Shown piece after piece: positions 5,276 to 50,691 of a DNA stretch of 64,000 nucleotides (positions are counted from its first letter, which is position 1; every line of letters starts with the position of its first letter). A model generated the notes under the pieces. That model had not been told where the DNA came from, did not search any database, and saw only the letters and a program-made list of their open reading frames with translations. Origin of the DNA: Chloranthus sessilifolius (taxonomy: Eukaryota > Streptophyta > Magnoliopsida > Chloranthales > Chloranthaceae); assembly GCA_021018995.1 (NCBI GenBank), contig CM037598.1:73302671-73366670 (forward strand), written 5' to 3'. Position numbers and translations under genes: made by a program.

Positions 5276-5972
5276 TGTGACGATCCGACTTTTCCAATCC
5301 CTCAGGTATAGGAAAGGCCGGTTCGCCAACCTATCGAATAAACGATAAGCCGGACAAACAGGGCACATATCAGAGTAAAGCGCAATAAATATCCATAGCT
5401 AAAATAAATGCTGAAGCAATTAAAAGTAAAGAACCACCGATGATGGCCGACCATCATCGAAACATGGCTCATAACAAAAATCAACGTCAAGTACAAAACT
5501 ATAATATCCAACTAAAATGGGCCCACAAATTCAAGTCTAACTCTCACCACAAGTAAGAAAATCAATAAGTTCCATACTGGGAAAAACTCCTCAGGAGGAA
5601 CCTCAAGCTCTTCCTCAGTGCGTAGTCGGGGATCGATCTCACGACCACGAGCAATGCGTCGATTACACGGACTGTCAACAAAGCTCAGTAGAAGAAAGAC
5701 ATCTACGACATTTTACTTTAACTAACATGATTTCAAAACAAATACCAGAATATAGCTTGTCAAACATATAAGCAGATAATAAACTGAATTTAGGTGCGGT
5801 AATCATATGTAAGATTTATTTCTAAATGTGTGAAAATAGTTTCAAGAACAGATGCAATGTTTCAGTGTCTTAGTTTCTCTAACTTCTATATGAAAAGTTC
5901 AGCAATTCATGACTTAATCCTCAACTTAAAATACCTCCCGAGTAAACTATATCTCGAGAGCAGGAATATAGC

Positions 5973-6055
5973 CGATGGGAACCCCTACCTACCATCGTCG
6001 TTTATGAACCCTTTCTCAGGATGCAACAAGCCCCTGCGTAATGAGGGAAACTTGT
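5973..6055 (-). repeat. Hairpin pair in LTR A
   Basis: CGATGG (5973-5978) pairs with CCATCG (5992-5997). ACAAG (6026-6030) and CCCT (6032-6035) pair with AGGG (6044-6047) and CTTGT (6051-6055) as a nested stem. The position, about 0.65 kb downstream of the palindrome array in LTR orientation, parallels hairpin clusters in LTRs B and C. Confidence 0.5.
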
Positions 6056-6708
6056 GCTAGAAAGTTATCCAGGAATTTTTTTGAGGGGTCGTTCAGGTCA
6101 ATCATAAAACAAATGCAGATACTAATATAAATCAGATGCAAGTCTCTTATATATAGTTCAGGTTCTTGATTTCAGATTTTCAGAGCTTAAGCAGATTCAC
6201 ATTTTAGGATTCAGGTAGATTTAGATTTTCAGTCATTCATATCAATTTCAGTTTACAGATGTAATTTCAATGGCATATGTAAGTTCAAAGATTTTAATTC
6301 AAAATATCCATGCGAATTAAAATAAAATACTGTAAAGATGAGATTCTCCTACCAAAACTCGGAGTTACGCGAAGTCAAGCAAAGTCCTATTGATGGTCTC
6401 TCACCCTCAATCTACATCACAATATACATTCATGCATTAAGATTAACTCTAATCACTAATAATATAGACCTATTTAAGTGTTTTCTCAAAAACAAGTCAA
6501 AACAGGCAAGTTGTGCCAATCCTAGAATTTGACGTAACCTTCTCATACATTTTTGACCATCAAGACGATTGATTCACGAGTTGGTCAAAACAGGAAAGTT
6601 GTAGAGTTTTCTGTTAGCTTTCAAACGCAAAATGAATCATTGCAATTGGAGTTCGGGATAAAAATTTATGACTACAATACTAAGATAGTATCGGAGTTCA
6701 ACGATACC

Positions 6709-6858
6709 TCGCTCGAGCGATGATAATAGCTCGCTCGAGCGATGACTTAAGCTCGCTCGAGAGAGGGCAGGGAACACCTTTTCGAGTATAAGACTTTTAA
6801 AGTCAAACTTTTGGTGTATCCTCGCTCGAGCGATGATAATAGCTCGCTCGAGCGAGCT
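6709..6858. repeat. Palindrome array A (core TCGCTCGAGCGA)
   Basis: Perfect 12-bp palindromes TCGCTCGAGCGA lie at 6709-6720, 6731-6742 and 6822-6833, a one-mismatch copy at 6753-6764, and an 18-bp perfect form AGCTCGCTCGAGCGAGCT at 6841-6858. Spacers include a shared TGATAATAGC. The surrounding LTR is AT-rich, so these GC-rich palindromes stand out. Confidence 0.95.
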
Positions 6859-7628
6859 ACAGCGATGCGATTTCGCTCGTTTTCACCCGAATCGAAACCC
6901 ATACATCCCAAAGCAAAACCCATGGCTAATCTAATGATTTTAATCAATAAATTGAATTAAAACATACCTTTAGTCTAAGGATTCCTTGATTAGAAACAAG
7001 TCACGCGAACGGAGCTTCGGAACGAAACCGGCGGGTTTCCTTGACGATTCGCGCCGCGATCAATCCCACGAGTTCACAGTGACAACTCCAACATGTCCCC
7101 AATGATCTCAACCTCTCCCAAATGCCAACTATGAATCCAAGGTTGATTCAAGTTCTTTCTAAGGTTCAAGGGTTTTCAACAAAGAGGGTTCTAGAGAAAG
7201 AGGTTTCCTAAACCGATCTCCTACGATGATTGAAGAAAAGAGAATACGGAGTTTCGCATGGTTGGGTAACTATCAAACGGCTACAGTTCTTCACGGCACT
7301 CACGTCTCTTCCTCTCTTAACAAAACCTACTATAATATGGGAATGCAATTCCTTCTTATAATAGGATTGCTCACAAAGTTAAGCACACACACACCTCTTG
7401 TGTGTTATATATACTTCTAATTTTAAAACTCAAGCCCGGTGTTGAGCGGCCACACCAAGGTCGGTGCAAGACTTTCACACGAGGGTCCAAATGGGCTCTA
7501 AATCAGAATCTGTTCACACAATCACATCTAGATAAAAATCTAAAACAAATGGTGACGTCGGTCGCCGAGCCGAATACACACATGGGGTCAGTCTAACTCG
7601 GGTTCAAAATACGAGTCTTTACAGAGAT

Positions 7629-10619: not shown

Positions 10620-11412
10620 TGTAACGTCCCAGAAATTTCATATTTAAATGGTTTACCTTGGGATGCGGACCAACTGGTCACGTGTTTGACCAGGTCACCT
10701 TTGACAAGGTCGACTTGTCAATCGTAGGTATACGAGGTGTATAATATAAACTCACTCCTTAGATGGATTGAGTATCCTTATGTATGCACACATACACATG
10801 TACCTTAGATGTTGGTGTTTAACACCAAGACAAATGGATATGTTATAAGAAAGAAAAAGGGAAATAAATTGTTTGAATGGAGTAGTTGAGAGGAGAGTTA
10901 AGAGAAAGAGAGAGAGAGTGAGAGAGTAAATGTGAGCAATCATACGAAGGCATTGAATACAGTTCTTTGATCTTGGCTCGCTAAGTCTAACGAATCGAGC
11001 TTGGGATCGAGGAGAGGTTTTAGTTGTGGGTTTGAGAAACCCTAGTAAGATCAGACTTGGGATCAAAGGATCCAACCGATTGAAGGTGAGCAAAATCTTT
11101 ATAATTATTTTCTTATGTTAATGTAAATTAGAAAGCTAAGATATGGGAAATCAATGACGAATCTACATGAAGGAGATAAGATGATTGCATGGGATAATGA
11201 ATTCGATCCATAGCTGAAGAAGGACAAATTCGTTCAATCGAAATGAGAATCCGATCAAACGAATTTGGCCTAAGAAGAAGATATGAAAAGAGAGAAAAGT
11301 TTCTGAGTAAATTGATCGAACGATATGAAATTCGTTCGTTCGATTTTGGAAACCGTTCAATTGAAAACCGTTCAATGGAAACCGCTCAAAAGAAGAAAAA
11401 GGTAAAAGACAA

Positions 11413-11509
11413 TTTCGTTCGAACGAAATAAAAATCGTTCGAACGATTTAGAAACCGTTCGAACGATTTTGTGAATCGTTCGAACGATTTGGAAATCGTT
11501 CGATCGATT
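11413..11509. repeat. Palindrome array B in LTR1 (core TCGTTCGAACGA)
   Basis: Perfect palindromes ATTTCGTTCGAACGAAAT (11412-11429), AAATCGTTCGAACGATTT (11432-11449) and AATCGTTCGAACGATT (11474-11489) occur in head-to-tail order with two near-perfect copies (around 11452-11469 and 11492-11509). Upstream, 11315-11390 carries decayed half-sites (TTCGTTCGTTCGA, CCGTTCAATTGAA). Confidence 0.95.
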
Positions 11510-11874
11510 TGGTTAAATTTAGGCTTTGATGCCTAATTTAGTTTGTAAATGAATTGTAAGAGAACTTAAGCTTCTTGAACCACTGTTTAGACATAGTAGT
11601 AATATTTATCATGCATTGATCATGCCTAGGTTAAGCTGAACCGTTGAGTTACTCATAGTAGGATAGGGTTTGAGGATTCAAAGGTTCGAGACGCCTGTAA
11701 GGTAGGGGAATATCTAACTAGTATACTATATTTCGAACCCATATGTAGTGATAGTGTAAGATGCATGTTTCGTTAAATTTTGTTGAGTTATAGTTAATGC
11801 AAAGCATAAAGTAAATGGCAATATTGCATGTGTTTACGCAAGTAAAAGAGAAATTTGTTAAGTAAGAGAAAGAT

Positions 11875-12210
11875 CATCCCAGGGATGTAAGAACACACGG
11901 GCATCGCAGAGATGCAATAGACAGTGTGACATCCCAGGGATGTGAGGTGGATGAAAGATCCATGTTAAAGAGATAAACAATAAATATGAATGCACGGGCT
12001 GAGTGTTATTATCCATTAGCACAAATTCACGGTGAATAACTATATTTATTGCACAATTCAATTTAAGGTTTAGAGAATACCCAACCGACACGGCGGGATA
12101 ACCGTGACTGACGCGGCAAGATATCCGTGACCAGTACGGCGGCTAATCCGTACACCAGCAGACATCCCAGGGATGCATAGTAGTATTAAGCCCGTCGCCT
12201 AAGAGACGGG
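11875..12210 (+). repeat. Hairpin cluster in LTR1 of element B
   Basis: CATCCCAGGGATG, a palindrome around one A, occurs at 11875-11887, 11930-11942 and 12163-12175. Other stems are CACGG/CCGTG (12089-12093, 12102-12106), GTACGG/CCGTAC (12134-12139, 12148-12153) and CCCGTC/GACGGG (12191-12196, 12205-12210). Six stems of different sequence within 340 bp are well above chance. Confidence 0.85.
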
Positions 12211-13269
12211 GACGAGGACAATTCCATGAAAAATAGTCTGATTAGACGACGATGGAGGGTATTCCATTGGGGCTCGATGCTATATTGCTCGGGGATTATT
12301 TAAGTTAAGATTTAAGTCATGATCTCAGCCAAATTGCAACTAAGGAAACTAGTAGTCATTGAAAGAAATGCATGATCAGAATGATAAAAGTAGTCAAATT
12401 GTCTTATCACATCTTAAAGTTATTTTTCAAGAAATGATATAACTATGAATGCATGTCTACTCTTGTCATGAAATATATGTTTGTAAAATGGATATATTTG
12501 CTGTGATATTGCCCTATTGAGCTAGGATGTAGCTCACCCTTTGACTATATGTCACAGGTGACGGTTTAGAATTTGATGAGAATGTAGGAATTGCTACTGA
12601 CGAGGGTGATCCCGGTGATTCGGATTACTTTCCAAGGGAGGAGACTGAGCCTCCTCCGGAGAGATTCTTCTAGAAGATTTTTCGCTGCATATTTTGATAG
12701 TATTTTGTAAAGAAAAAGAGAATTTCGGCTTGGTACGTCCAGCCTTATTTTGAGGGTAAACGAATATGTAATATTCTTTTGCCGAACCATTGAGAGTGAC
12801 CGTAGCTACAGCACTGATGGTTCGGGTTGGTTCTTTTGTTCATGCGAAGTCATGAAGTTAGAACTATCTTTTGGGCACGTGTTTTTTTTTTATAAACGTA
12901 CTGAAGAAATGGAGATCTATTTTGCATTATTTTCTTTTTTTTAATATTATGAATAGGATGTACCAAGTGTTCTGCATTTACATTATAGGGCACGGCCTCG
13001 AAATTCACGATGGCAGAGGTTTCCTTTTCTTTAGAATTTCTGACAAAGTCTTGGATTTTGTTGGAGTGAAGGGATCTTCTGCTAACAAAACTTTGGTTTC
13101 ATATGCAGAGCACGATGTCTTTTGGAAGACGGGGTCGACCGAAAGGTACTCAGAATAGAATCCAGAGCGGTGACGAGAGATTTCAGGCAGGGTCTAGTAG
13201 TAGAGACCAGAGGAGTGAAACGACTGACCGGATCGATTTGACAATCTATATATTGCTGCATTCGAATTT

Positions 13270-13285
13270 TTTTCATTCGTTCGAA
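13270..13285. promoter_or_regulatory. Degenerate B palindrome upstream of element B gene
   Basis: TTCGTTCGAA (13276-13285) matches 10 bases of the array B core and lies about 230 bp upstream of the gene's ATG, outside the LTR. TTCGAA also occurs at 13261-13266. A single degenerate copy could be chance; its value comes from matching positions in elements C and D. Confidence 0.35.
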
Positions 13286-13414
13286 AAATCAGCAAGCTTA
13301 TATTTTTTTTTCTTTTGGGAAGAACCTTAGGGTTTGTGAGGGTCTCCGATCTTCATCGATTATGGCTATCTTCACGCTTGAAACATTGCCATCATCCGTT
13401 TGGGTCATCTTGAG

Positions 13415-13509
13415 GTAATCATTAACCTCAATTTTAGTCTTAACAAATCCATTTCTCTTCGTATTTGGTAGATTTAGGGCTAAGTACATAAACTCTACAT
13501 TGTGCTTAG
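13415..13509 (+). other. Putative 5' UTR intron of element B gene
   Basis: Donor TTGAG|GTAATC and acceptor GTGCTTAG bracket 95 bases that end six bases before the ATG. A similar donor-acceptor pair directly before the ATG is seen in the homologous gene of element C and in antisense gene 1 of element D. Confidence 0.45.
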
Positions 13510-13514
13510 TTAAA

Positions 13515-14855
13515 ATGCCACCCAAGACTCGCCAATCCACGGCGAGTACGACACCAAAGAAACCCACTTCGGGTTCTTCCTCGCAACCACCACCGAAGAA
13601 ACCACCTACGGGTTCTTCATTGGCACCGCCCGTACAAGCACCGCCTCCACCACCTAACCGTGAACGACCAAATGAATGGTGGTCGGATAAGGATTTTGAA
13701 CCCGAGTGGATAATCGATCCTAAGACTTTTGCCAAGCATGATGAAACACATTGGGCATTCGATTACATTTCCACTGCTGGTTTAACGGGTATTCTAAAAC
13801 CATGCAACGATAGCTATTACCCTCGAATCGTTCAACTCTTTTACCAGAATATGGAGATCATTAAGGATCCTACCATTTTAAAAACAAAAATTGATAATAG
13901 ACCGTATACCTTTACATTTGATGACGTGGCGGATGCGTTGGAATGTTTCCCCGCGTATAACAATGAAGATATAGCATTAGCTGAGCCGTTTCCAAAGGGC
14001 TTAGACTATCAGTATGTAGCCGATCACATGACCCAGGGCCAAATAGGTTCGGGTCATTCTATCAAACGAGTTGATTTGCCCCGTGACCTCTGGATGCTTG
14101 ATTCCATCATCCACTGTAATTTGTACCCCTTACGCCATCGGACCGAGAGAGTTGGTGAGGTTCAAATGGCACTCTTTTCAGCTTTCAATGGGCGATGGTT
14201 CAATGCCCCCAAAATGGTTTTGGAGGGAATGAAATATTCCCGGAAGAAGATGTTGCCCAATGTGAAGAAATCGATTGATGACATGCCTTATGCAAGGCTC
14301 ATTTCACTAATGGTAGAGGACTATGCGGGGGATGATACCTACACCCTCTCCCCAAATGAGTTCAAGCTGATCGGCAATATTCAACCTTTTGCCATGGTTG
14401 ATTGGAACCGGACGTACGTTAAATTAGTTAAAAAGCTGATAGCCGAGGTACCACCCCAACCGGAACCCCAACCGGAAACCAACCCTCAAGACCAACCACC
14501 ACATGCTACCCCGGTTTATGATGAAGTTGCTGCTCATGTTCCTCCGCAACAGCCTTTTGATCAGCACACTCAGGAGCAAGCACCACCGCCACATGAGGAT
14601 CTTCCAACTCCGACGGTTGCCGATCTATATGCCTTGTTGGAAGCCAACACCCGTCAAATGGCGGAGAACAATCGCCTCCTCAACCACAGGTTGGATTATT
14701 ATGACGCTCTACATGCTGAGACGATGCGTTTCATGTACCCCGATGACTATCTTCAACGCATGGCCGCAGCGCAAGCATGGGTCTCTGGAGCGTCGACTTC
14801 TGGTGCAAGAACGTGTGATGATGACGGCATTCCGCCTGGTGACGGGGAGTCTTGA
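13515..14855 (+). CDS. Extra LTR-element protein, putative plant transposon protein family
   Basis: Intact 446-codon frame. I choose the ATG at 13515 (MPPKTRQ) because the homologue in element C starts MPPRKTR; an in-frame ATG lies five codons earlier. The N-terminus (about 1-50) is Pro/Ser/Lys-rich. The conserved middle (about 55-310) has PEWIIDPKTF, YYPRIVQLFYQNM, the Y-x-F-x-F-D-D-V-A turn, and LWMLDSIIHCNLYPLRHRTE. A proline/glutamine stretch (about 320-365) precedes a predicted helical C-terminus. It resembles proteins annotated as putative plant transposon protein, found as accessory genes in LTR elements; their biochemical role is not known. No gag, protease or polymerase motif is present. 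It is the only long intact gene with a family match here, so it may be under selection or simply young. Confidence 0.8.
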   Translation: MPPKTRQSTASTTPKKPTSGSSSQPPPKKPPTGSSLAPPVQAPPPPPNRERPNEWWSDKDFEPEWIIDPKTFAKHDETHWAFDYISTAGLTGILKPCNDSYYPRIVQLFYQNMEIIKDPTILKTKIDNRPYTFTFDDVADALECFPAYNNEDIALAEPFPKGLDYQYVADHMTQGQIGSGHSIKRVDLPRDLWMLDSIIHCNLYPLRHRTERVGEVQMALFSAFNGRWFNAPKMVLEGMKYSRKKMLPNVKKSIDDMPYARLISLMVEDYAGDDTYTLSPNEFKLIGNIQPFAMVDWNRTYVKLVKKLIAEVPPQPEPQPETNPQDQPPHATPVYDEVAAHVPPQQPFDQHTQEQAPPPHEDLPTPTVADLYALLEANTRQMAENNRLLNHRLDYYDALHAETMRFMYPDDYLQRMAAAQAWVSGASTSGARTCDDDGIPPGDGES

Positions 14856-15015
14856 GTGTCCTATATTTGGTGTCATGTTTTGGGGTTGCAAAATTTTGGA
14901 CTATTTTATTTTGCCTGTAAATTTTGTTGGATAACTTGTAAATTTAGCACAGGTAACCGGGGACATGTTTCCTCTTGAACAATCGTGGCATGGCTGCCAC
15001 TCGACTCTTTGTGAC

Positions 15016-15017
<2 letters not shown>

Positions 15018-15058
<41 letters not shown>
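15018..15058. repeat. (AT)n microsatellite in element B
   Basis: About 20 AT dinucleotides in the 3' untranslated part of element B. Confidence 0.95.
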
Positions 15059-15061
<3 letters not shown>

Positions 15062-15281
15062 CTTGTCTATATAATGGTGTTTATATTTACTTTTATTTGG
15101 TGGATGTGATTCCAATTTAGCTATCTATTCTGGGTGTGTGGTTGTTTTCTTTGTGACTACATGTAGTTCATGCAGGATGGGTATTTGAACTAGTCCCACG
15201 TGTACATATTGCGTGTGGGGGCCCATGCTGGGGTGTGGGGGAGGACCCTCTTGCGTATCATTTTCGCGGACGAAAATCCCC

Positions 15282-15294
15282 AAGGAGGGGTGAA
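15282..15294 (+). other. Polypurine tract of element B
   Basis: AAGGAGGGGTGAA abuts the first base of LTR2. It is the expected plus-strand primer and confirms that the element is on the plus strand. Confidence 0.8.
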
Positions 15295-16090
15295 TATAAC
15301 GTCCCAGAAATTTCGTATTTAAATGGTTCACCTCGGGATGCGGACCAACTGGTCACGTGTTTGACCGGGTCACCTTTGACAGGGTCGACTTGTCAATCAT
15401 AGGTATACGAGGTGTATAATATAAACTCACTCCTTAGATGGACTGAGTATCCTTATGTATGCACACACACACATGTACCTTAGATGTTGGTGTTTAACAC
15501 CAAGACAAATGGATAAGTTATAAGAAAGAAAAAGGGAAATAAATTGTTTGAATGGAGTAGTTGAGAGGAGAGTTAAGAGAAAGAGAGAGAGAGTGAGAGA
15601 GTAAATGTGAGCAATCATACGAAGGCATTGAATACAGTTCTTTGATCTTTGCTCGCTAAGTCTAACGGATCGAGCTCGGGATCGAGGAGAGGTTTTAGTT
15701 GTGGGTTTGAGAAACCCTAGTAAGATCAGACTTGGGATCAAAGGATCCAACCGATTGAAGGTGAGCAAAATCTTTATAATTAATTTCTTATGTTAATGTA
15801 AATTAGAAAGCTAAGATATGGGAAATCAATGACGAATCTACATGAAGGAGATAAGATGATTGCATGGGATAATGAATTCGATCAATAGCTGAAGAAGGAC
15901 AAATTTGTTCAATCGAAATGAGAATCCGATCGAACGAATTTGGCCTGAGAAGAAGATATCAATAGAGAGAAAAGTTTCTGAGTAAATCGATCGAACGATA
16001 TGAAATTCGTTCGTTCGATTTTGGAAACCATTCAATCGAAATAAAAATCGATTGAACGGTTTGCTCAGAAGAAGAAAAAAGTAAAAGACA

Positions 16091-16170
16091 ATTTCGTTCG
16101 AATGAAATAAAAATCGTTCGAACGATATGAAATTCGTTCGAACGATTTTGTGAATCGTTCGATCGATTTG
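16091..16170. repeat. Palindrome array B in LTR2
   Basis: ATCGTTCGAACGAT is perfect at 16113-16126; three flanking copies have one or two mismatches. Compared with LTR1 this array lacks a ~20-bp unit and some copies differ by compensating or single changes, so the array is changing faster than the surrounding LTR. Confidence 0.9.
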
Positions 16171-16534
16171 GTTAAATTTAGGCTTTGATGCCTAATTTAG
16201 TTTGTAAATGAATTGTAAGAGAACTTAAGCTTCTTGAACCACTGTTTAGACATACTAGTAATATTTATCATGCATTGATCATGCCTAGGTTAAGCCGAAC
16301 TGTTGAGTTACTCATAGTAAGATCGGGTTTGAGGATTCAAAGGTTCGAGACGCCTGTAAGGTAGGAGAATATCTAACTAGTATACTATATTACGAACCCA
16401 TATGTACTGATAGTGTAAGATGCAAGTTTCGTTAAATTTTGTTGAGTTATAGTTAATGCAAAGCATAAAGTAAATGGCAATAGTGCATGTGTTTACGCAA
16501 GTAAAAGAGAAATTTGTTAAGTAAGAGAAAGATC

Positions 16535-16870
16535 ATCCCAGGGATGTAAGAACACACAGGCATCGCAGAGATGCAATAGACAGCGTGACATCCCAGGGAT
16601 GTGAGGTGGATGAAAGATCCATGTTAAAGAGATAAACAAGAACATGAATGCAAAGTGTTATTATCTATTAGCACAAATTCACGGTGAATAACTATATTTA
16701 TTGCACAATTCGATTTAAGGTTCAGAGAATACCCAACCGACGCAGCGGGATAACCGTGACTGACGCGATAGGATATCCGTGACCGGTACGGCGGCTAATT
16801 CGTACACCAGCAGACATCCCAGGGATGTATAGTAGTATTAAGCCTGTCGCCTAAGAGACAGGGACGAGGA
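16535..16870 (+). repeat. Hairpin cluster in LTR2 of element B
   Basis: The same set as in LTR1: three CATCCCAGGGATG copies and the last stem, here CCTGTC/GACAGG instead of CCCGTC/GACGGG. Both arms changed, so pairing is kept. Confidence 0.8.
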
Positions 16871-17704
16871 CAATTCCATAAAAAATAGTCTGATTAGATG
16901 ACGATGGAGGGTATTCCATCGGGGCTTGATGCTATATTGCTCGGGGATTATTTAAGTTAAGATTTAAGTCATGATCTCAGCCTGGTTGCAACTAAGGAAA
17001 CTAGTAGTCATTGAAAGAAATGCATGATCAGAATGATAAAAGTAGTCAAATTGTCTTGTCACATCTTAAAGTTATTTTTCAAGAAATGATATAACTATGA
17101 ATGCATGTCTATTCTTGTCATGAAATATATGTTTGTAAAATGGATATATTTGCTGTGATATTGCCCTATTGAGCTAAGATGTAGCTCACCCTTTGACTAT
17201 ATGTCACAGGTGACGATTTAAAATTTGATGAGAATGTAGGAATTGCTACTGACGAGGGTGATCCCGGTGATTCGGATTACTTTCCAAGGGAGGAGACTGA
17301 GCCTCCTCCGGAGAGATTCTTCTAGAAGATTTTTTGCTGCATATTTTGATAGTATTTTGTAAAGAAAAAGAGAATTTCAGCTTGGTACGTCCAGCCTTAT
17401 TTTGAGGGTAAACGAATATGTAATATTCGTTTGCCGAACCATTGAGAGTGACCGTAGCTACGGCACTGATGGTTCGGGTTGGTTCTTTTGTTCATGCGAA
17501 GTCATGAAGTCAGAACTATCTTTTGGGCACGTGTTTTTTTTTTATAAACGTACTGAAGAAATGGAGATCTATTTTAGATTATTTTCTTTTATTTAATATT
17601 ATGAATAGGATGTACCAAGTGTTCCGCATTTACATTATGGGGCACGGCCTTGAGGGCTGCACCAATGGCACGAGTTTCGGAGTGCCAAAATTCAGGCCGT
17701 CACA

Positions 17705-35127: not shown

Positions 35128-35143
35128 TTCTCCCCTATTTAAG
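35128..35143 (-). other. Polypurine tract of element C
   Basis: On the minus strand AAATAGGGGAGAA directly precedes the LTR start TGTAACAG. It fixes the orientation of the element and its 3' LTR border. Confidence 0.8.
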
Positions 35144-37104: not shown

Positions 37105-37158
37105 GGTTGCTGCGGCAACTATATAGGCTTGCCGTAGCAAGTGGCTTGCCGCGGCAAG
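37105..37158. promoter_or_regulatory. Palindrome C copies upstream of element C gene
   Basis: GTTGCTGCGGCAAC (about 37106-37119), CTTGCCGTAGCAAG (37128-37141) and CTTGCCGCGGCAAG (37145-37158; perfect). They lie 270-325 bp upstream of the accessory gene's ATG and outside the mapped LTR. The flanks do not match those of the LTR array, so this is not simply a second LTR copy, though a decayed LTR piece is not excluded. Confidence 0.6.
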
Positions 37159-39262: not shown

Positions 39263-39337
39263 TACTGTAGCAAGTAAACCTCTAGTTGTTGTTGCTCGCA
39301 GAGTGGCACTCGATGATACAATGTCATTGAGTAATTT

Positions 39338-40798
39338 TCACCTTTGTAATCGTGTCACAAGATGAGATAACTGAGCAGATGATTTGCGACTAAGCGCATC
39401 AGCTACAACATTGGTTTTGCCGGGATGGTACTGAATAGAACAGTCGTAGTCTTTCAAGAATTTCATCCACCTTCTCTGCCTCAAATTCAACTCTTTCTGG
39501 GTAAAGAGATATTTAAGGCTCTTGTGATCGGTGAAAATTTCGAATGTTTCACCATACAGATAGTGTCTCCAAATTTTTAATGTGAAAATGACCGCTGCTA
39601 ATTCCAGGTCGTGAGTGGGATAGTTCTTCTCGTGGTCTTTCAACTGATGGGAACCATAGGCAATTACTCGTTCCCATTGATTCAAAACACAACCTAACCC
39701 ACTGTATGACGCATCACTAAAGACAACAAAACCACCACTGCCTGATGGTAATGCTAAAATAGGTGCAGATGTGAGTCTCCGTTTTGACTCTTGGAAACCC
39801 TATTCGCATGCCTCACTCCACTCGAATTTAACATTCTTTCGAGTGAGCTGCGTGAGTGGTCCAGCGAGCCATAAAAATCCTTCTACAAAACGTCGGTAAT
39901 AACCTATAAGACCTAGAAAACTTTGGATCTCGGTTACTGTCTGTGGCTGCTTCCACTGTACTACAGCTTCGATCTTTGCAGGATCAACAGTAATACCTGC
40001 TTCTGAGATAATATGGCCCAGAAAACTGACTTGATTCAACCCGAAGTCGCATTTACTAAATTTCACATACAACTGTGAATCTCTCAATGTTTGTAATGCC
40101 AGATGTAGATGATCTTCATGCTCTGTCTTTGTTTTTGAATAAATGAGTATATCGTCGATGAATACCACGATACACTAATCAAGATAAGGTTTGAAGACTC
40201 GATTCATCAAGTCCATAAATGCAGTAGGTGAGTTGGTCAACCCGAAGGGCATGACTAGAAACTCGTAGTGACCATAGCGTGTTTGGAAAGCTGTCTTCGA
40301 AATATCTTCAGCTTTCACCTTCATCTGGTGATATCCTGATCGTAGATCAATTTTTGAAAAGAAACGTGCTCCTTGTAACTGATCAAAGAGATCGTTGATT
40401 CGAGGGAGCAGATATCTATTCTTGATCATCAGTCTATTGAGTTGACAATAATCAATGCAGAGGCGCATCGAATCGTCTTTCTTTTTCACGAACAACACCG
40501 GTGCGCCCCATGGAGACACACTCGCTTTAATAAAGCCTTTATCAAGAAGCTCTTGCAATTGCTCCTTGAGCTCTTTCAACTCTGCCGGTGCCATTCTATA
40601 CGGTTCTTTCGATATTGGATCGGTACCCGGAGCTAACTCAATAGTGAACTCCACTTCCCTGTCAGGAGGTAAGCCTGACAACTCATCAGGAAACACATCA
40701 GGGAATTCACAGACAATTGGTACATCTGAAAGTGAAACTGTCTTCACTTCTCGATCTTTACTTTGCACGAAAGCAATACCCCTAAGCACCATCATCAA
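39338..40798 (-). pseudogene. Tekay-like reverse transcriptase - RNase H
   Basis: RT blocks in order: [46 protein letters not shown], then after a TAG (40172-40174) [10 protein letters not shown] with the catalytic DD, and [11 protein letters not shown]. RNase H follows ([38 protein letters not shown]). Gypsy order, RT before integrase. One stop between the fingers/palm blocks and the IDD block, another near 39799. Confidence 0.9.
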
Positions 40799-40877
40799 GT
40801 AATCGTCATGCTCGAATTGCGGATATCAAAGAAACATTTGTTGACGGTACCCCATAGAATTTAGCTGATTTCTTCTT

Positions 40878-41205
40878 TTATGGCTGAAAAGTGACAATCT
40901 TTCTTCGACAATCAACATTCGCATGGTGATTGAACAACCAATCCATGCCAAGGATAACGTCATATCCTTGCATCGGCAGTAAGATCAAGTCGGCTACTGC
41001 TTCATATCCCCAGTAGTCCTTGATCCAAACGATGACCGATCGATATAACATATCAATTGTGAGAAACTGTCCAGTTGAAAGTGTTACATCGAGAATAAAG
41101 TCAAGAGGTTCTGGGATACCTCCCAACTTCTTCAATTTTTCAGTAAACTGGGGTGTAACAAACGAGTGTGTAGATTTGGGATCTATCAAGACTCATGCGT
41201 CATAA
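40878..41205 (-). pseudogene. Tekay-like aspartic protease with altered active site
   Basis: The frame holds LIDPKSTHSFV and ends ILGMDWL. The usual active site in this lineage is D-S/P-G-A/S-T-H; here the Gly is Lys, so the catalytic loop is lost. Confidence 0.8.
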
Positions 41206-41399
41206 CACAAATAAGCATCTTTTAGATATAATTACAGGATACCTAAAGCATACCATCTAGTGTTAGCTGGATTACTTTTACTTATTAAAAAATAACAATA
41301 TGTAAATCTAACAATTAATAATATAGTATTTATAGTTTACTAGATGCACTTCCTCTATCTAAAAAGATAATATATAGCAAATATTAACGTAGATATTTA

Positions 41400-42764
41400 A
41401 TGGACCAACATACCTTGAATGATGTCATTACTAGTGCGTGCATCCTTTGTAGTGACAGCATAAGCTCGGCCTTGTACCGTAGGCTGTGCCGATCGTAACA
41501 CTGGTCCCACCTTTGCTGCTAGTCCGACTATTTCCAGGCATTCTTTAATCTGGTGTCCCATCTTGCCACATCGAAAACATGCACCAGAAGCTTTACGGCA
41601 CTCATCTGTTTTGTGTGTCTTTCCACATTTCCCACAAATTTATTTTAAAGCTACCGATGAAGCCGTGTAAGATTCCATGCGAGAACCTGTCGGTCGTGCT
41701 TGTGAAAATCCAGATGTACTTTTTGCCGCCAATGGAAAAGATTGGTTCTGAACTCGTGGAATCCTTGGTGGTAATGGGAATGTCGATGAACCATATGGCC
41801 GTGCATAAGTTCCTGCACCTGGTTGAAATGCGGCTTGTCCTTGAAATCGTGATCGTTTACTAATTTGACCAGTATTATAGGACTGAGATGGAGCTTTTCT
41901 GGCCTTTTATTTTTCTTCTCTCCTTTTGAACATGGTATCCACATCGGTTTCCGCTGTCAAGGCCAATTTCATCACATTGGCATAGGTCATGGCCTGAAAC
42001 AACGAAATGCATTCCTTGATCAAGGGTTTCAAACCTCGCTCAAACTTTTGTGTTTTCATCAACTCGGTGGCAACAAGTAAAGGTGCAAAGTGAGAGAGAC
42101 GAGTGAACTCTACCTCATATTCTCGTACAGTCATCTGGCCTTGAACTAAGGTTATAAACTGTACCTCTAGCTTATATCTCTCAAGTACTGGGAAATATTT
42201 TTCATTGAATGCATCAGTGAACTCTGCCCATGTCCATGGTACTCCGGGCATTCTTGTTCTTTCGACAGACTGCCACCATTGCTCTGCCTCACTCTCTAAT
42301 TTATACGCTGCCCGGCTCACTTTTTCTTCCTCGGTGCACGTGACTCTTTATAGCACTTTCTCAATCTGCGTTAACCACTTCTCAGCCTCCATTGGATCAT
42401 GCTAACCATTGAAACTTGGTGGTCGAAGTCGAATAAATTCTGTAAAACCCTCGGGATGTCGAACAGCAAGCATGGCCATAGTGTTGACCATGGTTTCTAT
42501 CAACTGCGGATTGTGTCCCGCATTTTGCTCAACGCCAAGAGCACTTCCCATCGGAGGAGTATTGACAACCGGCGGAGTCTGCACTGGCACTTGCAGAGTA
42601 TGTTCTACAACATTCTCCATCGTCGTTCGACTTTCAGCTATGTTTACATTCTCACAACTTCTCGATACAGTGTCATGCTCATAGCCTGCTACGGGAATGA
42701 CGTTCAGCCCAATGCGATGGGGCAACGGTGGTCTACCCGTACCTCTTCGACGACGCGAAGGCAT
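41400..42764 (-). pseudogene. Tekay-like gag with zinc knuckle
   Basis: Starts MPSRRRRGTGRPP at 42764. Capsid blocks include RPPSFNG, KLESEAEQWWQSV, WAEFTDAFNEKYFP, KLEVQFITLVQGQMTVREY and MKTQKFERGLKPLIK. The CCHC knuckle CFRCGKMGHQIKEC reads near 41530-41575. Stops at 42399-42401, about 42347 and about 41911 break it. It packages element RNA in intact relatives. Confidence 0.88.
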
Positions 42765-42855: not shown

Positions 42856-43563
42856 TGTAATGTGCGACCGTGGATCCTCTCGAACCCGTCCCGGCGATGC
42901 GCTCGCCTTGGATAAAATGTAGAGTCGCCACCCGGAGCTTTTGGTGATCGGGGAAACCTTCAAATCGATATTTTGAGCACCGAAGTGCTAAATATGACTC
43001 TGATTTACCGGTCTTTGCCAAAGGCTCTATGGTAGGGGCTTCGGTTATCGATCGGGAAGGGTTTAGGCACCCGATCAACCCGCACGTAGAGGTCTCTATC
43101 TATGGCCAAAAATAAAAATAAAAAGGGCGGAGTTTCCCCTTGCCCGAAGGCGATACGGTCCTATCAAGCTTTGAGCCAAACCAAAATTTCGACGGCGTAA
43201 CGGCTTGAATCCTTGGACGGAGGAGACACCAACAAGGTAGAGGAAGAGAGGGGTGAGCCGGAGCTCACGGGCCGTTGTTGCACCGTGGAAGATCTTCGCT
43301 TTGGCGTGCTTCTGATGGCTTAAATGGTGTGAAAATGGGTTCTAATGCTAGGATTCACTAAAGTAAGGGGTGTAGAGTGAGGCTAGAGGCTAGACTTTAG
43401 CAAAAGGGAGTGATCTAATGGTGGAAATGGGTCGAAAGGGATGAATAAAGCATGCTAGAATTCTGGAAAAATGTGTGCATTTTCTCTCACTAGGGTTCTC
43501 TCTTGGGCTCCAAATCCTTAACCTCCAATTTCTTCCAACCCTCAAGGAAGAGGGAGGCCTCTC

Positions 43564-43571
43564 TATTTATA
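43564..43571 (-). promoter_or_regulatory. TATA box of LTR D
   Basis: Minus strand TCTCTATAAATAGAGAGG, the best TATA element in the window; transcription would run leftwards through R/U5. Confidence 0.65.
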
Positions 43572-43844
43572 GAGAAGGGATGGGTTAGGGGCTTACTTAA
43601 GAGCTAATTGGTTTAGCAATTAGGTAATCCCTCATCTAAGGTTTTTTGGGTTTTCAAGGTCCTAGGGTTTTGGGAAACTAGTTTCAATGGCGGATGATGG
43701 GGTGAGACCATGGGTGACTTAAGGGTTGCCAATAAGCTCAAAGGGGGTGCAACCAATCTCAAGACACCCACCTCAACCCAGGGGATGGTCAAAGGGTCAA
43801 ACTAGATGGAGGAAATTGAGCATCGATGACAATTATAGCTAAGT

Positions 43845-44050
43845 GGCGATATATTATATACGCCGGTTTAAAACGATAATTTTCACCAAAATCGGGAGTT
43901 TTGAGAAGATGAAACCCGTGGTGGGTCCCACCTATCTGGGCGATATATATATATACGGCCAAATTTTCCCCAAAATAGGCAGGCGTATATAATATATGCG
44001 CCTGAGTAATCTGGGGTAAAAATGGCTGGGCGTATGTAATATCTACGCCT
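43845..44050. promoter_or_regulatory. Palindrome array D in LTR, upstream of TATA
   Basis: Arms GGCG-(A/T-rich)-CGCC at 43845-43864, 43938-43960, 43981-44003 and 44028-44050, each with one to three mismatches from the arms GGCGTATATA and TATATACGCC around one base. They lie 270-490 bp upstream of the LTR TATA box in minus orientation. Confidence 0.88.
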
Positions 44051-44439
44051 GAGTAAAATTCATGATTTTATGTGAAACTTAAAACGGCCATAACTTTTGA
44101 ACCGTAGCTCCAAATTGGGTGATCTTTAGCTCGTTGAAAAGCTGGAGAAGTCCTCTTTCCAATGATATATGGTGCATCCATGGTAATTGTCTGTGTGAAA
44201 TTTTGTGTCTCTCATCCCATCAACTGCTCAGAAGGGTTCAAGTTGGGTCTGGGAAGGGATTCTAGGGTTTAGAGGTGATCTCTAAGGTTTGGGGAATGGT
44301 TCTAACAGGTTTAGGGTGATTCCTAAAGGTTTGGGTAGGTTCCTAAGGGTTCAGGGGGGGAGTGCCATCGGAAGCACAGGGGTACATCTCTCCCGAAGTA
44401 CAGATTGATCGGGCCTTGGGCCGAATTTGGGTGTCTATA

Positions 44440-44455
44440 GATGCCCCTCTTTGGT
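44440..44455 (-). other. Polypurine tract of element D
   Basis: Minus strand CCAAAGAGGGGCATC abuts the LTR start. Typical of the Tat/Ogre group. Confidence 0.7.
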
Positions 44456-46432
44456 ATTCGATCACTAATGATCGGATGCCAAAGATAAGAGACATCCGAA
44501 GAGGTCCAAGGCACGTTTGATGGGTCCGCCTAGTTCAACTCAATTCTCAAACATTCATGGTGATGGTGAGTGTACGTAAGCCCTCTCATTTCGGGATATC
44601 GTCCGTACCTCAAAGGTAACAGTCCCCAAGCGCATTGCGACATTACTGGGCATAACTGTGATGATCACAAAAAGTGTAAGCCCGCTAGCCGGGATATCAT
44701 CCACTTCTTGAGGGAAATTATAGATTTGTGATGTGGAGTATTAACCTAAACCAGACAGCTTCATGAAACGGGATGATCGATCTATGCTTCGGAATTGATG
44801 CGAAGCACACAAAGCGAAGGCCTTCAAACTGTGTCCAACCCTATGGGATAATGACAGCTCCATTGGGTTGGCCACAAGTGCCCTTACCTAGGTAAGGCTC
44901 AGAGTTTCTGGGTGAACCCATCAACCTCGAGGTTGCTTTAGCATGATTTACCCGAGTGGAGCGAATATTGATGTCGCAACACCTCTTGGGAATGCATGCC
45001 CATTTTCTGAGTAATTTTTTTTGTGTCATTTTCTAAATTTTCTTTTGTTTCGAGGCCTCTAAGCAGAGCTCGACGACCTCTGACAACTTTATTTTTGCAC
45101 AACTCTTTAAGTGGATCAAATGCCAGTTGATACGCTTTTAAGAGTGCGTGCGCCATGCTGGGGATAGGTGCACCTTGGGGATGTGTACGTTCCAGTGGTG
45201 AGGTGCTCCTGATTCACATGGACTAGAGTGCTTTGAGTCGAGACAAAGCTAAAGATCGGGCTAGAACCAAACATCCCTCGAAAGAGATGGCTAATTTCTA
45301 GCCTCCGTCCCTAATGAAATCACATCTTACTAACTATGCACAAACAGACACCCATCAGGGGCGGTAAGCAGCAAATTAGCTCGAATAGAAGCCTCGACCC
45401 TAAGGTACAATTTACGAGGACAACGACCATCCTGCGGATACCCAGACGCAAGTGCGTACATTCAACAGGGACACCATGCCTATACAGGTTTTAAGCCTGT
45501 GTAAAAGAAAATAAAAGGGAAAAGGGCCCTTTGGTCTGTATGTTTGCACATAGTTTGGTTGGTTGTAATTTCATTTTTCATTTTGATCGACAATAGACTC
45601 TTCGAATGGTCTGAAGTTGGGGGCACTCTTGGTCAATATCAATCCGAAGGCGGATGACCAGAGTGAATGCGTGGAAGGTGGGGTCAACCCACTCAGGGCT
45701 TTTACTAAGCAACAACAAATTTGTTATTTCTTCTCTTTTTCTTTTTTCTTTTCTTTTTCTTTTTTCTTTTTTTTCTTTCATGCCAGATGGAGACCCTGGG
45801 CATGCTCAAACTGCCTTTGTTTTTGCACGTATCCTTAGACGAATCAACTTGCCATGTTGATATACCTTAGGGACGTGTGCATTCCGGTGATGGGTTCTTG
45901 GTTCGCCTGCCGGATCAGGCCTTGACTTCTGCTGGGGGGGATCTGGGGCTAAGTGTATGCTCCCGGTGATGAATGAAATTCATTTTCCTGCCGGATCAGG
46001 TACAAAGTGTCCCTGCATGAAACAGGGTTCGAGGACTTTCGGGTGAACCCGATCATTCCAAATTGATTTAACACGGCTCTCGTGGTGGGGCAAACAGACG
46101 TTGCGATGCCCTTGTGAGAACCAGCATTGTACTTTTGTTTTTATTATTTTTTGTTTATTATATATATATATATATTTTTTTATTCTCTCCTTTTTTTTTG
46201 ATTTTGTGGGCGCAATAGGTGGGCACCTACGGACCTAGATCCGTTTATTGTAGCACGGTCCCTTTGGGCCGATCGAAGTGAACTCGAAGGGTCATTTGGA
46301 GATCCGTGCACCATGGTCGACGACACGTGGGCCTCGAAGGGGGTCCGGATCGAGGTCCATAGCATACAAGGGGGCCGCTAGGCCTTAAAATCGGAAAAGG
46401 GAGGTCGGGCAGTTTAAAAACTGTCATTTTTT
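44456..46432. other. Non-coding 3' region of element D
   Basis: No gene is supported. Two related segments, about 44870-45010 and 46000-46120, share GGGTGAACCC, a TGCTTTAGCATG/GATTTAACACGG stretch and ATGTCGCAACACCTCTTG/ACGTTGCGATGCCCTTG, suggesting an old internal duplication. A T-rich run lies at 45725-45780 and (AT)n at 46158-46176. Confidence 0.45.
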
Positions 46433-46498
46433 GGTCGGGCATATATAATATATACGCCTGACCAAAATCAAGGAAATGGTCTCGATATATTATATACT
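46433..46498. promoter_or_regulatory. Palindrome D copies upstream of antisense gene 1
   Basis: A 31-bp near-palindrome at 46433-46463 extends the D core outward (arms GGTCGGGC and GCCTGACC; two mismatched pairs). A half-decayed copy lies at 46481-46498. They are just upstream of a presumed 5' UTR exon of antisense gene 1. Confidence 0.8.
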
Positions 46499-46499
46499 G

Positions 46500-47812
46500 T
46501 TTAAAAATCCATTAAATTCTCTCTTCCTCCTTCCTTTCTTCTTAAGTCCGGGACAACCCCTTAGGTTTTTTTTTTGGTTTGGCTTGAATTCCATTACCGG
46601 CGGTCACGGGTGTTGATCAAAAGGCGCTTATCCTCCGCCGCTCTTCGTTTTTCTCCCCCATTGAAGGTAACCATTACCTTCCCTTACTTTCTCTTTGTAT
46701 TTTGATAACATTATTGTTTTTCTCTCTCTCTCTTTTTTTTCTTTTGTAGTGAAATGCTTTTTCTTTTTTCATTTCCATTTAAACATATGTGATGCCTATG
46801 TTCCTTTTCTCTCGGTTTTGTTGTGTTTTTTTTTTTTTCCTTAGGCCTATATATATTTATTTTTATTTATTATTATTTTTATTATTATTTATTCATCTCA
46901 TCCTATTTTCTCTTTCTCTTTTTTTTGTTTTCGATGGATTAGCGCATCTTATCTTTTTTTTGGACTTGCACATGGTTTTGCCTTTTTGTTGTTTTTTTTT
47001 TTTTATACACACATATCTCTTTTTTTTGGATTAGTACCCACACACGCATGATTTTTTTTGTTTTTCTTTCTTTTAGTACACACACATCTTTTCTTTCGGA
47101 TTAGTATATACACATGAGTTTTTTCTGTTTTTTTTTTTTTTTTTTAGTACACACCCCCATCCTTTCTTTCGGATTAGTATATGCATATGAGTTTTTTTTA
47201 TTTTTTTTTATTTTTTATTTTTTTTATTTTTTATTTTAGCACACACACACATCTTTTTTTTGTTTTGAATTAGTATACATACACACATGTTGTTATTTTT
47301 TATTTTTTTTTGTTATTATTCTTCACACACGTACACATCTCTCTCTTTTTTGGTTTTGGATTAGTATACATACACATTTTTTCCTTTAGTTAGCACACAC
47401 ACACACACATCTCTCTTTTTTTTTTGTTTTGGATTAGTATACATACACACATGGTTGTTTTTTTTTTTTGTTAGCACACACACACACACACATCTCTCTT
47501 TTTTTGGTTTTGGATTAGTATACATATACATTTTTTTCCTTTAGTTAGCACACACACACACACACATCTCTCTTTTTTTTTTGGTTTTGGATTAGTATAC
47601 ATACACACATGGTTGTTTTTTTTTTTGTTAGCACACACACACACACATCTCTCTTTTTTTTTGTTTTGGATTAGTATACATACACACATGGTTGTTTTTT
47701 TTTTTGTTTTTTTTTTGTTATTATTCTTTGGATTAATGCATATACATATTTTCCTCTTTCTTCTTTTTTTTGTTGGCAACCCCTCATATGCCGATGCGTC
47801 TCATGTTTTCAG
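46500..47812 (+). other. Presumed 5' UTR exon and 1.1-kb intron of antisense gene 1
   Basis: A donor CATTGAAG|GTAACC lies at 46667 and an acceptor GTTTTCAG ends at 47812, two bases before the ATG. The intron is very T-rich. Exon limits upstream are not seen directly. Confidence 0.45.
46985..47740 (+). repeat. ~80-bp T/CA-rich tandem repeat
   Basis: The unit T(n)-GGATTAGTATACATACACACATGG-like block (GGATTAGTATACATACAC) followed by TTAGCACACACACACACATC and CTCTC recurs about nine times. Length varies through the T and CA runs. It lies wholly within the presumed intron. Confidence 0.9.
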
Positions 47813-47813
47813 G

Positions 47814-50118
47814 ATGTCTGGTGACGAGGGGCATGATCAGCAAGAAGGGCCGGAAATGGCCTACGGTCCCCGTGGGGAACTCATTGTGTCTCAGCGCTCC
47901 TCCCAGCCTTGGTATGAGATGCAAGGCGAGGCCGCCCACACCGGCCTCCTCTACTGCCAGCACACCCATATGTCCAACTTCGGGATCGTTGGTCGTAAAA
48001 TGATGGACCCCTCCTCCTTTCCGCTTTTGCTTTCCTTTGATGCCCTCATTATATCTCCACGCCTATCTGATTGATTCCTTTTGCTTGCAGCCCCTGCCAC
48101 ACATTATGTTCCGAGGCGGTTGGTTTGACCTCCAGCTTGTGCTTACCTTCCCCGATGGTGAAGGACCTACTTCTGCGCGGTTTTGGGGACTTCATTTTGT
48201 GCCTCATTGTAAGAGCCGACGGCCTATTTAAAAGCAGAGCGCCAAGACGATGACATTCCACATGGCCGTGGCAGATGGCCTTCACTCCGTGGACTGGTCT
48301 ATGATCACGGGTCCGTGTAGACGGGTGTGCTCAGTGGTACCCACCCGCACATAGAGAGGAGGTGATTCAATGCTAGGGGCCTACCGTCCTCGAGGAACGT
48401 TCGGCTCGGAGGTCAAGCTATCCTGGTTGGTTGATCAGTGTGGGCCTAATGAGTTGGTGGACCGAGGCAGGACATGGACATTTATATCGAGCTTGTACGC
48501 GCACTTATGCTGGCCCGCATCTCCTTACTGTTCCTCCTAGGCAAGACTCTCCTCTCCAACACCAGTGGAGGGCGAGTCTCCTTGTCCCTGGTCAGCCTGA
48601 TAGTGAACTGGGAGACTGTTCATCGATTCGATTAGGGCGGCACTGGCTATGCCGTACTCATGTCCAGCCTAAAGCGGGCCGTGCTTGGGGAGTCTAGCTC
48701 CATTGTGGGTTTCTGGCCTGCCATAGAGGTATTTTATCTTTTGTTTTTAGTTTATTCAATTTTCTTTTATAGCATACCTGTCCTCATCTCTGCCGCTTCT
48801 CGTGCTGAGATACCTTCACTTTCAGTGGTGCCCTCTTCAATCGAGACATTGCTCGTTCCCCTTATGAGTAATCGCACGGGCATTGATGTAGGTATGAAGC
48901 ATTTGGAGTTAGGATCACCTCGCCTCAATTTGATCCCAGGGCAGGTGAAACAATTCCCTTTTTGTAAATTCGTAGCTCAGCTTCTGTGTGCTAGGGGTTC
49001 TGATCAAATGTGCATCCTCTCCGATTTTTCTTCTTTGCGTGTCATCCTCGACCCTTACATAGGATCCCCTTTGAATTTGGCCTCTGGGCCCCTCTCGCTT
49101 TTTGGACCGGACTGTCAGATCATCTTTCTCTCGGATCCCGGACTAGGGCTTATTATTTAGGGGAGAGAGCGGTTCATCAGTATCGCACTCTCATTGCTGT
49201 GCCCCAAGCTCCCCCCGCCGACATGTTGGCCCCAGAGGGCTCCATTGATGAGCTCACCGCTTCATTTTCTTCATCATGGGGTGCCTATCGATGACCTTTC
49301 TCGCCCGGGGTATCAATCTTGGCACGACTCCCGCCCTATCATTTCTTCGCCCACTTCGTGCTAACTTTTTAGCTTTTGGGCGCGATCTCAGGTAATGCCC
49401 CTTTTCTTCTTTCATTCAGCAGCTTTCATGTGGTTACCTTGATTGACCTGTAGCCCTTAATGATAAAATATTTCTCTCTACAGTTTGAGCAGGGCGGCGA
49501 CTCAAATGAGGGGGAAGAGGAGGCCGTTCCCTATGATGCGACAGGTGTTGAACCTTCCAATCCTTCCGGGGCTGGCGTGGCTTCAGGTGCTGGTGCTTCT
49601 GGTAGCTCGCCCGTCGAGGTCCAGGGGACCTTCAAGCGCCTGGATGATGCCTTTTTGTCACGCGTGTGTGCCGACGTGGCCGAAAAGGCACAATTTCTGC
49701 CGAAGCTATCCAGGTCCCACCTCCCGAGCTGATTCCTGGGGTAATCTCTACCTTGTTGCTCCGTTCTCTTTCCCTTTGAATTATGCTGATGGCCTGTGTG
49801 ACTAACACCTCCTTTTTCTTACTGGCCAGGATTATGAGTCGGCAGTGAGTCAGGCCGAATACTACCGTAACCTTGTTAGGCTTAGGGAGACCAAAGTGGT
49901 GAGTGAATGCTGGCCCAAACTAGTCATTTTCCTAGTTTACTCTCTGCCTGTTTCTCTATTTGATGGCTTTTGGTGTGCCTCTGCAGCGTGCTCGTGAGAA
50001 GGAGTCGCGCTCCTTGCTTAGCCGTATCTCTCAGGCATGGACTCGGGTGGGGGAGACCCGTACCTTTCAAAGTGCGAGCCGGCGTCGGAAGAAGTCGAAG
50101 GGGGCTGCCCAGGACTAG
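47814..50118 (+). pseudogene. Antisense gene 1 of element D: plant mobile domain (PMD) protein
   Basis: Opposite in direction to pol. The first exon codes for MSGDEGHDQQEG and a basic/hydrophobic segment. Further exons, in frames interrupted by stops, give SWLVDQCGPNELVDRGRTW, AHLCWPASLLFLLGKTLLS, GTGYAVLMSSLKRAVLGESS and GFWPAIE, matching plant mobile domain proteins. Canonical introns are visible: acceptor at 48090, donor GAG|GTATTT at 48729, intron 49391-49482, donor at 49741, acceptor at 49829, donor GTG|GTGAGT at 49900, acceptor at 49986. The C-terminus is a charged coil ending SKGAAQD. Antisense genes between pol and 3' LTR are known in Tat-lineage elements. Stops in the PMD part suggest decay. 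Confidence 0.7.
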
Positions 50119-50526
50119 TTTATTTTCTGCAAAAGTGGACATAATGAGACAATTTAGACTTTTGATTTATATGGGATATGTAATAACTTTAGACAACAAC
50201 AGTCTCTTTTTTTTTATGGTTTTGTAATTTTCATGGTTTATGCAACTGTTTTATTTGGTTATCTCTTTGCTTTGGTGGTTTCCTCTCTCTTTTTCTTGCT
50301 TGGAACGAACTGGCACCTCTCCAATGATGAGGTTGATCATGCAGGTGACTCTCCGTATGCGACCTATGGGCGGCACGCCACCCGGGTGATTCTCATGGGT
50401 GTGTGGCATGCCCGCCCATGTGCGCTCTCGCGACAAAAAGGTGGGCCAAAATGAACTACGTTCCCCCTTGGGAAAAGAAAATAGACCAGTGTGAGGGGGG
50501 GGGCTTGCCAGCCCCGGCTTAAACTA
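50119..50526. other. Non-coding spacer after antisense gene 1
   Basis: T-rich DNA with no frame of note; presumably the 3' untranslated part of antisense gene 1. Confidence 0.45.
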
Positions 50527-50691
50527 GGCGTATATATTATATACGCCAAGCCAACATTTAGCAATCAATAGTCGGGCGTATATATTATATACGCCTGACC
50601 AATCCTCAGTAAAAAATGGTCGGGCGTATATATTATATACGCCGGGCAAAAATGATTCAAAATTTGCCTTGGCGTATACAATATATACGCC
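50527..50691. promoter_or_regulatory. Palindrome array D upstream of antisense gene 2
   Basis: Three perfect copies (arms GGCGTATATA and TATATACGCC around a T) at 50527-50547, 50575-50595 and 50623-50643, and one with a single mismatch at 50671-50691; the spacing is a regular 48 bp. Copies 2 and 3 extend outward with GTCG / TGAC-type arms. The array ends 170 bp upstream of the ATG of antisense gene 2. Confidence 0.95.

Follow-up and report, generated by a model that had tools for sequence, protein, structure and literature searches.

Palindrome arrays at the LTRs and accessory genes

Four elements with long terminal repeats (LTRs), here designated A to D, carry arrays of short palindromes within a single window of Chloranthus sessilifolius DNA (assembly GCA_021018995.1, contig CM037598.1; the window is the whole 64,000-nt stretch that was analysed). 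In two of them, C and D, the motif of the element is clustered and dyad-symmetric and occurs both at the LTR (in or near it in C) and upstream of the accessory genes, with no other detectable similarity between these places. Combined, these observations suggest that the arrays probably are family-specific palindromic cis-regulatory promoter modules, which couple transcription from the LTR with that of the accessory gene and are read by one factor; what we infer is that a protein binds them, that LTR and accessory gene are co-regulated, and which factor acts as the reader. Each element is represented by one copy, and both C and D are decayed (Table 1).

Each motif (A, TCGCTCGAGCGA; B, TCGTTCGAACGA; C, TTGCCGCGGCAA; D, GGCGTATATAWTATATACGCC) was counted against the mean of 30 shuffled windows, with dinucleotides preserved inside 4-kb blocks and with up to two mismatches allowed for the A, B and C motifs and up to five in 21 for the D motif. 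All four arrays are present at about the positions given in a preliminary description of this DNA and lie well above the shuffled expectation. The A motif has 13 matches vs. 0.9 (five in A and eight in the B LTRs, seven of the latter in the B arrays), and the B motif has 21 vs. 1.3 (15 in the B LTRs, four that are the A copies, a proposed copy upstream of the B accessory gene, and one site at 34354 in the C region). The C motif has nine matches vs. 1.1 (eight in C, one elsewhere), and the D motif has 16 strand-wise matches, corresponding to eight places, vs. 0.07. The A and B counts overlap because these two motifs cross-match at two mismatches: both follow TCG-N-TCGA-N-CGA and differ in one symmetric base pair, contradicting the earlier statement that all motifs are unrelated. 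Outside the motif, the LTRs of A and B are not clearly alike, the best match covering 39 bases (E = 0.002). Perfect palindromes of at least 12 bases that are not A/T-only number 35 in the window vs. a mean of 16.4 in 20 shuffles (range 10-26), with contributions of four from A, five from B and two from C. Array units follow one another in tandem at spacings of 17-22 and 48 bp, and an Rfam scan of the window at the gathering threshold returned no matches.

The connection between LTR and interior was recovered without naming the motif, by comparing each LTR with the interior of its own element by sensitive blastn and considering the best 14 matches per comparison (LTR limits 10620-13001 for B, taken as 33500-35130 for C and as 42930-44440 for D). 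In D, the LTR array pairs with 50524-50694, ahead of antisense gene 2, in each of the five best matches (best E = 1e-14), and with 46432, ahead of antisense gene 1, in the sixth (E = 1.6e-4). In C, all of the first five matches link 33758-33883 to 37100-37154 (best E = 8e-6). The best scores of 71.4 bits in D and 40.5 bits in C were reached by none of 100 shuffled interiors each, the maxima of which were 35.9 and 31.2 bits, respectively. With the palindromes masked, the best leftover match had E = 1.0 in C and 2.4 in D; masking removes the similarity, and therefore the palindromes themselves, rather than a larger duplicated block, are common to both places. Among the eight C copies, all nine changes from the perfect palindrome are C>T or G>A (2 of 6 changes in B and 0 of 1 in A, for comparison), and therefore all copies at both places probably were once identical. 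For the upstream placement, odds of 0.066 (C) and of 0.026 and 0.077 (D) were obtained as post hoc ratios of lengths, which are not to be taken as p-values. The best match in B (E = 0.018, 28.1 bits) is unconnected with the motif and was equalled or beaten in 10 of 100 shuffled interiors.

The preliminary description had proposed four families with an LTR array and a further copy upstream of the accessory gene. This layout holds for C, with one array in or near the LTR and an upstream cluster beyond chance, and for D. The copy proposed upstream of the B gene is half-preserved, is not above chance and is not the best match between the B LTR and interior, and an accessory gene for A was not found within the window. 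Two families, rather than four, bear out the rule of a motif at both LTR and accessory gene. Within D, the motif upstream of the antisense genes is also beyond chance, but 1.3 kb separate the gene 1 cluster from the ATG at 47814. A splice-donor-like AAGGTAACC (~46670) and an acceptor-like TTTTCAG directly before the ATG were noted by eye in the gene 1 leader, and the cluster would be promoter-proximal only if the 5'-leader intron suggested by these sites is real.

Table 1. Features of elements A to D, with positions in the window
Element	Feature	Position	Strand	Details
A	Solo LTR	5276..7623	.	2348 bp; TG..CA; target-site duplication GAGAT at 5271-5275 and 7624-7628
A	Array	6709..6859	.	5 copies of TCGCTCGAGCGA, 4 perfect
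B	Small complete LTR element	10620..17704	+	~7.1 kb; flanks CATGA / CACGA, 4/5 alike
B	Array, 5' LTR	11412..11507	+	5 copies of TCGTTCGAACGA, 3 perfect
B	Array, 3' LTR	16093..16166	+	4 copies, 2 perfect; one unit short of 5' LTR
B	Proposed upstream copy	13277..13288	+	2 mismatches, 4/6 dyad pairs kept; 230 bp before ATG
B	Accessory gene	13515..14855	+	446 aa; intact, no internal stop; weak Transposase_32 (PF20167) match
C	Array near or in 3' LTR	33758..33884	-	5 copies of TTGCCGCGGCAA, 1 perfect, plus half copy
C	Accessory gene, Transposase_32-like	35481..36835	-	Sense gene behind pol; reading frame interrupted by stops and frameshifts
C	Array upstream of accessory gene	37105..37159	-	3 copies, 1 perfect; ~270-325 bp before ATG at 36835
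C	gag-pol remains	37740..42763	-	gag, reverse transcriptase, RNase H, integrase, chromodomain; ends by eye
D	3' LTR	42918..44439	-	~1.5 kb; limits by eye; polypurine-tract-like sequence before LTR
D	LTR array	43844..44050	-	Scan copies at 43844, 43982, 44029; a further, more degenerate copy at ~43939
D	Motif upstream of antisense gene 1	46432..46500	+	A clear copy and a partial one
D	Antisense gene 1, degenerate	47814..50119	+	ATG after splice-acceptor-like CAG; limits by eye
D	Array upstream of antisense gene 2	50524..50694	+	4 copies at 48-bp spacing, 3 of them perfect 21-mers; ends ~170 bp before ATG
D	Antisense gene 2, plant-mobile-domain-like	50863..52303	+	Two open pieces
D	pol region	54826..59052	-	Reverse transcriptase, RNase H, second RNase H (RVT_3), integrase, G-patch; Ogre/Tat-like

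A proposed shared promoter module

If the arrays are promoter modules, a sequence-specific and probably dimeric DNA-binding factor would read the palindrome module both in the LTR promoter and in that of the accessory gene, so that genomic RNA and accessory protein would be switched together; the reader may come from the host or may be the accessory protein. D supports well, and C, with the LTR end left open, supports the earlier claim that a private palindrome at the LTR and at the accessory gene implies shared regulation; B lends it no support. In D, the LTR array lies ~270 bp upstream of a TATA-like box (CTATAAATA at 43571). Additionally, the two LTRs of B were compared for decay of CpG to TG/CA, which affected 1 of 12 comparable sites in the arrays vs. 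30 of 85 outside them (one-sided Fisher p = 0.054; three sites with other changes were set aside, and another alignment gave 1/12 vs. 31/86). In these LTRs, 1 of 86 twelve-site CpG runs was as intact as the core array. The comparison would speak weakly for a core array that is protected or little methylated and against a silencing hot spot, with numbers too small to carry weight.

Several observations weigh against a shared promoter module. Both places are occupied in just two elements, each a single decayed copy, and B has an intact accessory gene with no convincing site upstream. By a strict pattern, no TATA-like box was found in the B LTR or between the array and the ATG of the C accessory gene, and the TATA-like boxes between the array and the ATG of D gene 2 lie only within the palindromes themselves. 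The C LTR starts at 35127, following a purine tract, and its 3' end was not identifiable among four TTACA candidates between 34800 and 32300; the array falls inside the LTR for an end at 33179 and outside it for ends at 34238, 34478 and 34662. The best TATA-like box of C (34557) precedes the array, which would place the array possibly downstream of the box. Finally, the CpG difference in B is small and is gone with the degenerate array 11225-11510 (8/27 vs. 23/70, p = 0.48).

Relatives of these elements were sought in collections that possibly hold no plant DNA: a protein search returned none at E <= 0.001 (3333 candidates for the B accessory protein and 396 for the first piece of D gene 2), and scans of viral contigs returned none either (39 stretches fitted one pattern and none was confirmed). 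The function of plant LTR-retrotransposon accessory genes is open (PMC7264820, PMC11963269), and a palindrome common to the LTR and the accessory gene offers a concrete, testable cis-target.

Alternative explanations

A special case of the shared module, the odds of which are not exclusive of it, is that the accessory protein binds the palindrome of its own family at the LTR and at its own promoter, acting as an auto-regulator or as a VANC-like anti-silencer; on the analogy of VANC and MAIN/MAIL1 we regard this as possible but rather unlikely. The B accessory protein is a homologue of that of C (38% identity over 185 aa), the motifs of the two elements are different, and both proteins begin with a basic MPP(R)KTR stretch; the related VANC6 and VANC21 also have different motifs in tandem repeats (PMC5735166), and 25 of 26 genes dependent on the domesticated proteins MAIN/MAIL1 carry a 'DOWN' promoter motif (PMC7156037). 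However, the homology with different motifs concerns two proteins only, one of which, the intact B protein, is the one whose gene has no convincing site. The authors leave open whether the MAIN/MAIL1 complex binds the DOWN motif (PMC7156037), and chromatin contact of MAIN/MAIL1 is itself unknown (PMC9899485). The matches of the accessory proteins to PF20167 or PF10536 all fall short of the Pfam cut-offs, no DNA-binding fold was found in them, a search of the PDB with them gave no significant match, and the AlphaFold2 model from a two-row alignment was unusable (mean pLDDT 34.5). A C-terminal dimer helix was also considered and set aside: 125 of 300 shuffles were equally good in B, which makes it unconvincing there, and 6 of 300 in C, and the B and C proteins are unalignable in this part.

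A more specific form of this idea, which we find doubtful, is that Ty3/gypsy elements have private operator-reader pairs, in which a Transposase_32-like or plant-mobile-domain (PMD)-like protein reads its own palindrome in the LTR and at its own promoter, and both diverge together between families. The one symmetric base pair by which the A and B motifs differ would then be a step in the divergence of operator and reader. If true, LTR retrotransposons would have a self-limited, VANC-like way of activation or anti-silencing, and the PMD and Transposase_32 accessory genes would have an explained purpose.

A live alternative, though unlikely in our judgement, is that the palindromes act as hairpins of RNA (or single-stranded DNA) that feed or steer small-RNA silencing, their occurrence at two places being a by-product or serving to spread silencing. 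Eight array stretches (folded with one copy each of the D LTR and D gene 2 arrays omitted) each beat 200 of 200 shuffles (z -3.6 to -9.6), compared with z -1.40 to +0.64 for six controls, but any palindrome folds well and the test is not discriminating. In favour of hairpins, the C copies at 33782 and 33804 complement one another and not themselves, and the palindromes of maize Sireviruses are reported to attract small RNAs (Bousios 2016, via PMC10760457). On the other hand, a hairpin does not need a fixed sequence, yet the identical sequence recurs at separate places. The CpGs of the B core array look less decayed rather than more (the wider array showing no difference), and in maize Ty3 elements such structures form no obvious peak according to the same source (PMC10760457). 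Functionless local duplication, with the internal arrays as chance transfers of LTR sequence, agrees with the tandem spacing, the 5 vs. 4 copies in the B LTRs and some matching flanking letters in the C and D alignments, but is very unlikely given spacers that have no similarity once the palindromes are masked and internal arrays that fall upstream of accessory genes in C and, at two such places, in D.

Structure of the elements

Element A, a complete solo LTR, has a local, empty-site-like paralogue, as 5130-5193 matches 7619-7682. The LTRs of B are 2.4 kb long and 95% alike across 2387 aligned columns. Its accessory gene is the sole open frame of at least 200 aa in the element, and the encoded protein matches PF20167 with E = 0.00056 and 20.3 bits, under the cut-off of 45. 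No gag-pol frame was seen among the long frames of B, shorter frames not having been scanned; the element presumably borrows gag-pol from elsewhere, and its accessory frame is intact despite the 5% LTR divergence. Queries with a set of tRNA 3' ends revealed no primer site where one would be expected in B, C or D.

The domains of C, which include a Ty3-type gag match and a chromodomain after the integrase (PF00385, 28.3 bits vs. a cut-off of 25.1, in a scanned piece with X at stops), identify it as a chromovirus of the Ty3/gypsy superfamily. Accessory genes of chromoviruses typically sit 5' of gag-pol (PMC11728184). A sense Transposase_32-like gene after pol, as in C (35481-42763), would on this account be unusual, this position being published for Athila and, in the accessible text, not for chromoviruses (PMC11728184). 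Just past the C array, tandem units at 32852-33021 contain a further quasi-palindrome (of the CCCGAGTTAGCGGG type) and may be another array in or beside the C LTR.

In D, RVT_1, RVT_3 and rve follow one another in gypsy order, with RVT_3 at E = 4e-21 and 75.7 bits (cut-off 21.6). The LTR ends, TATAGA and TCTACA, are inverted repeats except for one base. Antisense gene 1 gave no Pfam match in the three pieces scanned, and the two pieces of antisense gene 2 match PF10536 with E = 0.0016 and 0.00023, both below the Pfam cut-off. Judged by its sequence, D is best called Ogre-like because of these weak PMD pieces and because a PMD domain is reported in 57% of Ogre elements (Neumann et al., PMC6317226). 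Between D gene 2 and pol, a 61-bp tandem array of 8.7 copies (52691-53223) resembles the arrays between pol and the 3' LTR of Retand (PMC11963269).

Other parts of the window contain further elements and repeats. A decayed element at 23158-32092 has a match to DUF1985, the VANC domain (25330-25743, E = 4e-6, below the cut-off), as well as an Ulp1 peptidase (28571-28816) and a GRF zinc finger (29167-29613), and is flanked by tandem arrays of 134-bp units (23597-24742) and 259-bp units (30977-32089). Its appearance is that of a Mutator/VANDAL-type element, and its arrays occupy the places expected for VANC targets. The two arrays have a few 8-mers in common (ATGTGAGA, 14 and 7 times; GTCTGATA, 9 and 6 times), by estimate not clearly above chance. 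Additionally, a 2.2-kb unit lies at 18336-20505, in which 488-bp direct repeats (90%) enclose remains of SH3_Tf2-1 and of a chromodomain; its relative at 8165-9309, which also has a chromodomain, is rearranged and in part inverted.

Comparison with known systems

The closest precedent, uncited in the preliminary description, is the layout of the RM palindromes in Sireviruses, and it makes the present layout less new. Each Sirevirus has palindromes of its own, which cluster in the LTR and also upstream of the ENV-like gene in elements that have one (Bousios et al. 2010, PMC2829016). Nine of the 13 RM-bearing Sireviruses have ENV and copies in the linker, with 77 of 79 copies located upstream of ENV; 12 of the 13 motifs have a CGG-CCG core, the clusters form CpG islands, and RM palindromes were absent from the other Ty1/copia elements tested there (PMC2829016). 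The present elements are similar in having a repeated palindrome in the LTR (A and B with duplicated flanks, D with the LTR limits set by eye, C with the limit open) and further copies upstream of the extra gene in C and D, though not in B. They differ in that the chromovirus C and the Ogre-like D belong to Ty3/gypsy and not to Ty1/copia, in that the extra genes of D are antisense and PMD-like, and in that the motifs do not have the CGG-CCG core (CCGCGG in C being nearest, and the D motif being AT-rich inside).

VANDAL elements and their VANC proteins resemble the present elements in having family-specific short motifs arrayed in noncoding DNA and related accessory proteins with different motifs (PMC5735166, PMC10398659). 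However, VANDALs are DNA transposons with DUF1985 proteins and a non-palindromic motif, YAGTATTAY, and their binding and demethylation were measured (PMC5735166, PMC10398659). The proteins of B, C and D gene 2 have weak matches to PF20167 or PF10536 and not to DUF1985; the VANC21 motif occurs at three places in the window, unconnected with B, C and D, and the VANC6 motifs at none.

Grande, Retand and Ogre also have antisense genes between pol and the 3' LTR, with an own promoter in Grande, but a palindrome of the LTR and accessory gene is not mentioned for them in the accessible text of these sources (PMC7264820, PMC11963269, PMC6317226). MAIN and MAIL1 are likewise PMD proteins whose dependent genes have a common promoter motif, the difference being that these are host genes and that direct recognition by the PMD is not shown there, as far as the accessible text goes (PMC7156037, PMC9899485). 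For Ty3/gypsy elements, no description of the palindrome layout was recognised in the literature searched, the coverage of which left out most subscription journals. C and D carry the layout known from Sireviruses into a second superfamily, and this would suggest that the control of LTRs and accessory genes is convergent or common.

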